Of a stretch of 64,000 nucleotides of DNA, positions 21,040 through 52,267 are shown one piece after another. The stretch is taken from contig JAGOAS010000010.1 of NCBI GenBank assembly GCA_017983795.1, positions 62,001-126,000 on the forward strand, in the 5' to 3' direction. The notes below the pieces were generated by a model, which worked only from the letters and a program-made list of their open reading frames with translations, was not told where the DNA came from and made no database searches. A program made the position numbers and the translations under genes. Origin of the DNA: Piscinibacter sp. (GTDB lineage: Bacteria > Pseudomonadota > Gammaproteobacteria > Burkholderiales > Burkholderiaceae_C). Numbering within the stretch: the stretch's first letter is position 1; every line of letters begins with the position of its first letter.

Positions 21040-22137
21040 ATGGGCGTCCGCGCGCTCTACGAAGCGACGCTCGCCGAGCGCGGCTACGCGGCCGACCCCG
21101 CGCAGCTGCGCGCGGTGGCCGCGCTGGAGCGCTGCGAGAACGAGTGGATCGCGTACAAGGCGCGCCGCAGCAATGCGGTGACGAAGATGCTGGTGCGCCC
21201 GCCGATCCCGCGCGGGGTCTACATGTTCGGCGGCGTGGGCCGGGGCAAGAGCTTCCTGATGGACTGCTTCTTCAACTCCGTGCCGCTGACGCGCAAGACT
21301 CGTCTGCACTTCCACGAGTTCATGCGTGAGGTGCACCGCGAGCTGCAGGAGCTCAAGGGCGTGGTCAACCCGCTGCAGGAGCTGGGCGCGCGCATCGCGC
21401 GGCGGCACCGGCTGATCTGCTTCGACGAGTTCCACGTCGCCGACGTGACCGACGCGATGATCCTGCACCGCCTGCTCGAATCGCTGTTCGAACACCGCGT
21501 CAGCATCGTCACCACCTCGAACTTCCACCCCGACGACCTGTACCCGAACGGCCTGCACCGCGACCGCATCCTGCCGGCGATCGCGCTGCTGAAGGACAGG
21601 CTCGAGGTCATCAACGTCGACCACGGCACCGACTACCGCCAGCGCACGCTCGAGCACGTCAAGCTCTACCACTGTCCGCTCGGGCCGGCGGCCGACGCGG
21701 CGATGAACGAGGCCTTCGAGCAGCTTGCCGAGGCGCGCGACGAGGATCCGGTGCTGCGCATCGAGCACCGCGAGCTGCGCGCGCGCCGGCGCGCCGGCGG
21801 CGTGGTGTGGTTCGACTTCAAGGTGTTGTGCGGCGGCCCGCGCTCGCAGAACGACTACCTCGAGATCGCCTCGCAGTTCCACACGGTGCTGCTCTCCGAC
21901 GTGCCGCACATGCCGCTGCGCATGGCCTCCGAGGCGCGCCGCTTCACCTGGCTGGTCGACGTGCTCTACGACCGGCGCTGCAAGCTGATCCTGTCGGCCG
22001 AGGTGCCGGCGGAGCAGCTCTACACCGAGGGGCCGCTGGCGCACGAGTTCCCGCGCACGGTGTCGCGGCTGGCGGAGATGCAGTCGGCCGAGTTCCTGGC
22101 GCTCGAGCGCCGCACGGTGGACACTTCGCTGACATGA
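21040..22137 (+). CDS. zapE: Cell division protein ZapE (AFG1-like ATPase)
   Basis: P-loop ATPase of the AFG1/ZapE family, linked in E. coli to Z-ring constriction and in mitochondria to clearance of membrane proteins. The 365 residues contain MFGGVGRGKSFLMD (Walker A at about 64-71) and RLICFDEFHVAD (Walker B). It starts 7 bases after lpdA, an arrangement I recall as common in Burkholderiales. Its stop codon lies inside CTGACATGA (22129-22137), which is repeated exactly 77 bases later at the start of the next gene. Confidence 0.92.
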   Translation: MGVRALYEATLAERGYAADPAQLRAVAALERCENEWIAYKARRSNAVTKMLVRPPIPRGVYMFGGVGRGKSFLMDCFFNSVPLTRKTRLHFHEFMREVHRELQELKGVVNPLQELGARIARRHRLICFDEFHVADVTDAMILHRLLESLFEHRVSIVTTSNFHPDDLYPNGLHRDRILPAIALLKDRLEVINVDHGTDYRQRTLEHVKLYHCPLGPAADAAMNEAFEQLAEARDEDPVLRIEHRELRARRRAGGVVWFDFKVLCGGPRSQNDYLEIASQFHTVLLSDVPHMPLRMASEARRFTWLVDVLYDRRCKLILSAEVPAEQLYTEGPLAHEFPRTVSRLAEMQSAEFLALERRTVDTSLT

Positions 22138-22140
22138 CCG

Positions 22141-22213
22141 CCCCAAGCTCGCTTCGCTCGCTGCCCCCAGGGGGCGCTCAGTGGCTTCGGAACGGCCGTG
22201 CGCCACTGACATG
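22141..22213 (+). repeat. Dispersed intergenic repeat, copy 1, ending at a start codon
   Basis: This 73-base segment is nearly identical to the reverse complement of 52185-52260. It starts CCCCAAGCTCGCTTCG and ends GCGCCACTGACATG, with ATG the start codon of the next gene. It can fold into two hairpins: GCCCCC/GGGGGC, and CAGTGGC (22179-22185) with GCCACTG (22202-22208). It is flanked by exact 9-base direct repeats CTGACATGA at 22129-22137 and 22206-22214. The second flank shares its first 8 bases with the element end seen in copy 2, so it may be part of the element rather than a target duplication. Confidence 0.85.
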
Positions 22214-22780
22214 AAGCGCCTGCGCGTTGCCCTGCCGAGCCTGCTGTGCGTGCTGCTCGCCGCGCTCGAGCCGGCGCGTGCCGACGACAGCGCCGAGCGC
22301 TCGCGCATCGCGCGCGAGCGCGCCGAGGCGCAGGCGCGTTTCGAGGCGCGGCGGCGCGAGTGCGAGACGCGCTTCGCGGTCACCGCCTGCGTCGACGAGG
22401 CGCGTGCCGAGCACCGCCAGGCGCTGCAGCGCCTGCGCCGCGAGGAGGGCGTGCTCGACGAGGCGCAGCGCCGCCAGCGCGCCGCGGCGCGCATGGCGGC
22501 CATCGAGGCGAAGCAGCGCGCCGAGCGCGAACGGGCGAATGCGCCGCGCGCGGAGCGTCCGGGGGTGTCGCCGCAGCTGCGGCCACCGCGCCAGCCGGCT
22601 GCGGCGCCGAAAGCGGCATCGGCGCCGGCCAGCGCGCCGGATCGTTCGGCCGAAGAGGCGCGCAGCCGCGCCCGCTTCGAGGCGCGCCGGCGCGACGCGC
22701 GCGAGCACCGCGAGCAGGCCGAACAGCGCGAGCAGAACGGAAAGAAGGCCGCGCCGCTGCCGGATCCGGCAGCGCGCTGA
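22211..22780 (+). CDS. Exported charged coiled-coil protein of unknown function
   Basis: Unrecognised protein of 189 residues. It has a signal peptide (MKRLRVALPSLLCVLLAALE, likely cut after PARA), then long Arg/Glu/Ala-rich helices. Two cysteines, Cys51 and Cys60, lie in ECETRFAVTACVDEAR and could form a disulfide in the periplasm. The block ARFEARRR appears twice, near residues 42-49 and 155-162, suggesting internal duplication. A Pro/Ala linker lies between. The ATG belongs to the repeat element; a GTG in frame at 22181 would lie inside the repeat and is less likely. It is convergent with the PP2C gene, 7 bases away. TolA-like or adaptor roles are only guesses. Confidence 0.75.
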   Translation: MKRLRVALPSLLCVLLAALEPARADDSAERSRIARERAEAQARFEARRRECETRFAVTACVDEARAEHRQALQRLRREEGVLDEAQRRQRAAARMAAIEAKQRAERERANAPRAERPGVSPQLRPPRQPAAAPKAASAPASAPDRSAEEARSRARFEARRRDAREHREQAEQREQNGKKAAPLPDPAAR

Positions 22781-52187: not shown

Positions 52188-52260
52188 GTCAGTGGCGCCC
52201 GGCCGTTCCGAAGCCACTGAGCGCCCCCTCGGGGGGCAGCAAACGAAGTGAGCTTGGGGG
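52185..52260 (-). repeat. Dispersed intergenic repeat, copy 2, ending at the dadA start codon
   Basis: Read on the minus strand it begins CCCCCAAGCTCACTTCG and ends GCGCCACTGACATG, matching 22141-22213 with a few substitutions and a 2-3 base indel in the loop of the first hairpin. It lies between the amidase stop (52268-52270) and the dadA ATG (52187-52185), facing the same way as both genes, as copy 1 does. CATG flanks it on both sides (52267-52264 and 52188-52185 in minus-strand reading). Confidence 0.85.
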
Positions 52261-52267
52261 TTTCATG

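Follow-up and report, generated by a model that had tools for sequence, protein, structure and literature searches.

The zapE junction in the window

The window analyzed here, a 64,000-nucleotide stretch of a Piscinibacter sp. contig (JAGOAS010000010.1, assembly GCA_017983795.1), carries a copy of a short, G+C-rich repeat between zapE and the next gene, and this element and its family are the subject of this work. The zapE gene, encoding an AFG1-like ATPase (PF03969, E 8.4e-124), lies on the + strand at 21040..22137, with its TGA stop at 22135-22137. Its native end is the nine-base sequence CTGACATGA (22129..22137, + strand), which is repeated exactly at 22206-22214. The downstream gene (22211..22780, + strand, 189 aa) starts within this second repeat, at an ATG (22211-22213) that adjoins the element, and its product matched no Pfam family at E<=0.001 in a scan of the four proteins flanking the two copies present in the window. 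An earlier note on this DNA, made from the sequence alone, had described this arrangement, and its account was confirmed: both exact repeats are present, the coordinates place the zapE stop in the first and the next gene's ATG in the second, and removal of 77 bases yields CTGACATGAAG, in which the zapE TGA and the downstream ATG overlap as ATGA.

The repeat core spans 22140..22209 (+ strand) and was recognized with 85 bits (E 1.3e-14) by covariance model R1, which describes a 72-nt core and was built without the flanking ATGs. Within it, a G/C hairpin, GCCCCCAGGGGGC (22163..22175, + strand), is 2 nt shorter than the commonest form and is followed at 22178..22209 (+ strand) by hairpin 2, which consists of TCAGTGGC, the conserved loop TTCGGAACGGCCGTGC and GCCACTGA and has a stem that covaries among copies. 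The left CTGACATGA contains an ATG (22134-22136, + strand) whose counterpart in relatives with overlapping genes is the start codon of the downstream gene. From this ATG, an element-borne mini open reading frame (mini-ORF) of 26 codons plus stop (MTAPSSLRSLPPGGAQWLRNGRAPLT; 22134..22214, + strand) runs through the element, and with hairpin 1 shortened its TGA overlaps the downstream ATG exactly as ATGA. The earlier note, whose inference of an insertion into a junction is supported, overlooked this frame, open from the left ATG to the right ATG. No Rfam match at E<=1 was obtained for window positions 21900-22400, the window copy being the only one scanned, and by reading (no terminator scan was run) no T run indicative of an intrinsic terminator follows either hairpin of this copy.

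The nine-base repeats are not a clean target duplication, because the CTGA on the right is part of the element itself. The right-end CACTGA forms the 3' arm of the element's hairpin and is common to other copies, so that a 9-bp duplication is ruled out and a caution to this effect in the earlier note was well placed. Among 74 copies with co-oriented neighbours, agreement between the bases beside the left and right ATGs was little above that of mismatched controls, save at offset -4 (39 vs 23). Judged from these comparisons, the nine-base identity is mostly coincidence, and ATG(A) is the only possible duplication.

The repeat family and its distribution

The window copy is not a chance repeat, for blastn against the genome of origin gave 21 matches at E<=1, of which nine cover almost the whole length. 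All copy numbers given here are lower bounds, as the candidates scored per genome were capped at 150 in the genome of origin and the genus, at 33 in the family draw and at 26 in the class draw. With model R1, the same genome yielded at least 34 matches at E<=0.1 and at least 15 at E<=1e-5, and eight genomes of the genus together yielded at least 110 copies at E<=1e-5, all of which were inspected together with their flanking sequence. Genome G004 is that of Piscinibacter defluvii SH-1 (L053), as its coordinates in common with G357 show, and this species thus falls within the genus. Among 150 genomes drawn from the family, at least 78 had matches at E<=1e-6. A draw of 185 genomes of the class gave matches at E<=1e-7 in at least three, namely the genome of origin, a second member of its family and an incomplete genome from a different family. 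The last of these (78% complete) contributed a single match, G241:C4:48147-48218, for which contamination and transfer are both possible. In all, 202 copies were examined; the family set of 92 corresponds to 97 matches minus five that repeat the same places in two loci (L290, L297), and two further weak family matches were left unused.

Overall, the element measures about 77-80 bp, with a core of about 72 nt (mostly 69-75 nt) and a core G+C content of 68-86%. Four identical cores were found at four loci of the genome of origin. Tandem copies also occur: genome G116 carries two arrays of three units with a 79-nt period (L315, L316), G096 has a pair at 82 (L317), and pairs were seen in G002 and G155. 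In these arrays the next unit opens with ATG or GTG directly after the previous one, and thus chained restarts stay possible; the terminal TGA is missing from one unit of the second G116 array. The arrays L315, L316 and L317 could serve as copy-number markers and as natural tests of chained reinitiation.

Placement at start codons

Amongst the 110 genus copies, an ATG was found within about 12 nt on the left of 94, on the right of 88 and on both sides of 81; the corresponding control value was 10.6% of random 13-nt windows, the right-hand search being four positions wider than the left. The neighbouring genes were co-oriented for 101 copies, convergent for three, divergent for three and incomplete for three. 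The distance from the upstream stop to the left ATG was 11 nt or less in 69 of 74 scored copies. A stricter count that used the gene starts called by our own script still left 71 of the 101 co-oriented copies with only -3 to 20 nt outside the core. In control junctions, drawn from the same loci and from the window, co-oriented gaps of 10 nt or less accounted for 104 of 243 junctions by number and for 259 of 12,641 intergenic bases. Since tight co-oriented gaps hold so few of the intergenic bases, neither random noncoding insertion nor purging alone would be expected to bring the majority of copies there.

Two apparently orthologous sites, L212 (G006:C37:33365-33435) and L237 (G004:C2:166844-166915), are exceptions to the start-codon rule: a start codon is missing just to the right of the repeat, and a T/A-rich, promoter-like stretch comes next.

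Empty and filled sites

The zapE junction was compared with the best 80 of at least 591 relatives confirmed in a zapE scan of genome contigs. In 44 of these 80, the zapE stop overlaps a start codon as ATGA and an ORF of 50 aa or more follows, and in nine the junction has the exact 11-mer CTGACATGAAG. The hairpin motif of the element was found within 150 nt of the zapE stop in none of the 80. Additionally, eight pairs of flanks from the genome of origin were joined without the repeat and searched in the genus. For seven of the eight sites, 25 loci in other species aligned through the junction, with stop-to-start spacings of -4 to +19 nt, and the hairpin motif was found within 100 nt at none of the 25. 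These loci were taken from about 33 through-junction alignments, and the eighth site, which had a single alignment, was not among them.

Thus, empty sites at zapE and at seven of eight other places support the proposal of the earlier note, namely entry of the element into a coupled stop/start junction without damage to either gene, and the preference for such junctions that it asked about is real. The predicted ATGA overlap holds at zapE itself; as a general target it does not, for the empty sites elsewhere include GTGA, TGATG, TGAnATG and longer gaps.

Some sites are filled in more than one genome. The C15 site is also occupied in genome G003, by the same subtype, and is empty in other species of the genus. 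The C3 start codon (G000:C3:55683-55754) is filled in G004 (G004:C1:23445-23517) by another subtype, other species again being empty. The C40 start codon (G000:C40:106590-106661) is empty in six other genus genomes, and in Acidovorax radicis N35 (L387) a related repeat lies between genes orthologous to the C40 neighbours, the flanks being 78% identical over 286 nt and 71% over 355 nt. In the C40/L387 and C3 cases, the same start codon was apparently entered independently, the alternative being an old insertion followed by loss. The left flank at C40 differs from the empty sites of relatives in a manner suggesting that the element can supply its own left ATGA.

Phase-matched mini-ORFs

Read from the left start, the copies form a mini-ORF of about 25 codons that ends right at the next start codon. 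Of the 159 usable copies, 141 had their first in-frame stop -8 to +4 nt from the right start, compared with 85.3±4.7 when phases were permuted, and none of 10,000 permutations reached the observed value. The result was the same in the genus set (71/85; permuted 49.4±3.2) and in the other genera (70/74; permuted 36.6±3.5), with 0 of 10,000 as high in either. Copies with a core length that is not a multiple of three were still phase-matched in 63 of 70 cases, against 31.0±3.9 expected from permutation. The commonest stop/start arrangement was TGA-N-ATG (84 copies), followed by ATGA (28).

In seven of the 85 genus copies, the left ATG is in frame with the gene, so that the downstream protein would gain an N-terminal extension from the element, in place of a separate mini-ORF. 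Such read-through may be another harmless outcome of insertion.

Eight of the 110 genus copies lie in antisense context, between genes on the other strand. Of six examined, five gave a 25-codon ORF leading from an RTGA at the upstream stop to an ATGA at the downstream start, and one read 209 codons, in frame into the gene. The peptides of these antisense copies are unrelated to the sense ones; therefore openness and phase are kept, and not the peptide. A conserved peptide is accordingly ruled out, the window copy and the antisense copies encoding different ones.

The covarying hairpin

Structure conservation was measured in an alignment of 91 distinct copies taken from the family draw, in which 97.9% of cells were paired over the whole structure and 143 cells had changed on both sides, compared with 27.3 after shuffling; fitting of the alignment to the model works in favour of pairing, and ungapped stems read directly agreed. 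All eight pairs of helix 2 showed both-side changes in some copies. When the partners were slid along, pairing fell to 31-57%. The conserved structure may act as RNA or as single-stranded DNA.

Interpretation and alternative explanations

Altogether, a repeat family that bridges coupled genes with a phase-matched mini-ORF is real, and it stands on better ground than the earlier note had given it. The family, its placement, the open phase-matched mini-ORF, the covarying hairpin, the empty orthologous sites and the tandem copies were all observed directly. Most probably, this is a non-autonomous, dispersed repeat that acts as a translated bridge and thereby preserves translational coupling at tight, co-oriented start codons, similar to the mycobacterial interspersed repetitive units (MIRUs). 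We infer that the mini-ORF is translated, that ribosomes reinitiate after it and that the element is mobile, spreading by means of a recombinase supplied in trans.

In the proposed mechanism, the left end of the element would provide or keep an ATG or GTG at the upstream stop. A ribosome would then translate the mini-ORF of about 25 codons through the element, melting the 3' hairpin, terminate a few nucleotides from the start of the next gene and reinitiate there. Coupling would be kept, where an untranslated spacer of 77 nt would be expected to destroy it. An insertion therefore need not break the operon, because the mini-ORF would let the ribosome cross and restart at the next gene.

Several points weigh against this interpretation. 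The case is built on sequence, and the gene calls come from a simple codon-usage script. Forty-three of the 202 copies have no usable left or right start and fall outside the phase count, and 18 of the 159 counted miss the right start: eight stop early, seven run in frame into the gene, two stop 10 nt before it and one stops late. The copies are related, so that the permutation figures overstate their independence, with the genus and other-genera sets nevertheless in agreement. Three of the 110 genus copies lie inside a called ORF, two of them among the 101 co-oriented; two of the eight antisense-context copies belong to this kind and were not among the six examined. Shine-Dalgarno-like 4-mers occurred at the left ATG in 19 of 74 copies and at the right one in 17 of 74 (random 10.3%), no clear difference, so that a stronger Shine-Dalgarno signal on the left is unsupported. 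The window copy folded alone was no more stable than its shuffles (z -0.25) and so offers no evidence of excess folding stability; its minimum-energy fold lacks helix 2, which is present in the centroid. Finally, a transposase was not found, the PF01797 family being absent from seven of the eight genus genomes.

The placement could also reflect an element that is aimed at start codons. A recombinase would recognize RTG or RTGA at coupled genes and insert a self-coupling cassette, with the conserved loop and freely varying stem as its recognition structure, perhaps acting on single-stranded or ribosome-exposed junctions. Several observations would fit such aiming: two genera share one occupied start codon, two species carry different subtypes at another, tandem units have entered at the start of a previous copy, and an antisense subfamily keeps the linkage. 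We consider it possible, if rather unlikely.

Three other explanations were weighed against the translated bridge. A regulatory leader, with the downstream gene controlled by a signal that the mini-ORF peptide or the hairpin detects, in the manner of an attenuator or riboregulator, would account for a strongly covarying hairpin with a conserved loop beside a start codon, for a mini-ORF that precedes the gene and for a presence that varies among species. It appears improbable, given that the peptide differs between the window and antisense copies and that the window copy had no Rfam match. An ordinary G+C-rich repeat of the REP or MITE type (repetitive extragenic palindrome; miniature inverted-repeat transposable element) might land anywhere, with harmful insertions lost from gene-dense genomes and the mini-ORF an accident of G+C content. 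Consistent with this, the coding fraction of the flanks is 0.93, tight co-oriented gaps make up 104 of the 243 control junctions, G+C-rich frames are often open, the copies share ancestry and some lie elsewhere. Purging alone, however, would leave the majority of copies in the remaining gaps, where about 98% of the control intergenic bases lie, and phase is kept in spite of changes in core length (63/70 vs 31.0±3.9). A sibling repeat with the same 5' module in Polaromonas JS666, moreover, sits off start codons, with an ATG on both sides in 1 of 24 copies. We thus regard an ordinary repeat as very unlikely.

The slimmest chance is given to a REP-type element moved by a REP-associated tyrosine (RAYT, Y1 tyrosine) transposase, with placement dictated by the target choice of the enzyme. 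The element is short, palindromic, dispersed and hairpin-bearing, and single-stranded transposition could explain the conserved hairpin. Mobilization by RAYT is unsupported, however: PF01797 occurs in one of the eight genus genomes, and this is not the genome of origin, with its at least 15 copies at E<=1e-5. Integron attC sites were considered and dropped, the copies being mostly single and scattered.

Relation to known repeats

MIRUs were reportedly described by Supply et al. in 1997. According to the passage on them in a 2025 review (PMC12548453), MIRUs appear mobile, insert at start codons, carry an ORF coupled with a -4 nt spacing and are likely inserted with minimal effect on expression; elsewhere they are given as units of 40-100 bp at 41 H37Rv locations, 12 of which vary in copy number (part of PMC2734929). 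The element described here is likewise short, dispersed and located between genes, with at least 110 copies in eight genomes and three of the 110 inside a called ORF. Like MIRUs, it enters start codons whose empty sites are short junctions, and its mini-ORF is by sequence of the coupled type (141/159, with the exact ATGA in the window copy). Its tandem arrays may be counterparts of the MIRU loci that vary in copy number. It differs in belonging to another phylum and in its commonest spacing, which is TGA-N-ATG with ATGA second, and as the likeness is one of description, it is not classed as a MIRU. It also has a covarying 3' hairpin with a conserved loop and an antisense subfamily, and we know of no such description for MIRUs.

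The junctions involved are those known from termination-reinitiation at overlapping genes, with -4, -1 and short gaps and the same presumed mechanism (parts of PMC10666635 and PMC6728339); here, the mobile spacer itself would supply the coupling. In the native gene pairs reported in the former, a spacer of about 20 nt nearly abolishes coupling, so a 77-nt insert should matter unless translated; reporter studies cited there show coupling over longer spacers. REP sequences and bacterial interspersed mosaic elements (BIMEs) with RAYT, in the relevant part of PMC2817692, are also short, palindromic, dispersed and non-autonomous. The present element differs from them in its position at start codons, its phase-matched ORF and the lack of a PF01797 gene in seven of eight genus genomes.

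The sibling repeat in JS666 gave 43 blastn matches, self included. It shares the 5' module, has in most cases another 3' module, built on GGCAAAGCC, and measures 90-92 nt (24 copies measured). An ATG was near the left end in 5 of these 24 and near the right end in 4. As the sibling is not at start codons, the placement is a trait of the type described here and not of G+C-rich repeats of these bacteria in general. Loci L016, L017, L018 and L020 of the genome of origin and L405-L434 of JS666 belong to this second type, with a GGCAAAGCC-like 3' module and, in JS666, positions off start codons; it is possibly the published beta-proteobacterial repeat element (BRE).

As characterized in the BRE section of Hot et al. 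2011 (PMC3110155), full-length Bordetella copies are 75-91 bp with a mean G+C content of 69%, and BREs are usually intergenic, tandem and variable in copy number, occur in Bordetella and Comamonadaceae and in some cases overlap ORF ends by a few bases. Size, G+C-richness and intergenic siting fit our element (core of about 72 nt plus ends, 68-86% G+C), compared by description only, and the two are probably kin. They differ in that some BREs lie wholly within coding sequence, and in abundance: the published count for JS666 is 29 BREs, whereas R1 gave one weak match in that genome (E 9.2e-5). The section offers no function for BREs and mentions no mini-ORF, coupling or covarying hairpin.

Literature searches, which mostly did not cover subscription journals, found no paper on such behaviour in Betaproteobacteria, and MIRUs are the one case found in print of start-codon repeats that are self-coupled to a gene. 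If the translated-bridge interpretation is true, translated bridging would be a recurrent route of mobile DNA into operons, used also by what looks like a separate family in another phylum, of which 202 copies, in two orientations and with a covarying hairpin, were examined here. The copies would provide many natural test constructs for termination-reinitiation, and a repeat type whose probable relatives have no assigned function would be offered one. Puzzling small ORFs and N-terminal extensions in genome annotations could also be accounted for in this way.

A second copy in the window

The window contains a second copy on the - strand, with a core at 52189..52260 (100.2 bits, E 7.5e-18). It lies downstream of an amidase gene (PF01425; 52268..53734, - strand) that ends in TAG, and upstream of a gene for an FAD-dependent oxidoreductase (DAO, PF01266; 50844..52187, - strand). 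Its mini-ORF (MKPPSSLRLLPPEGALSGFGTAGRH; 52189..52266, - strand) has the commonest form, with about 25 codons and TGA-N-ATG at the next gene: the stop is followed by a C and then by the ATG of the oxidoreductase gene (52187-52185).
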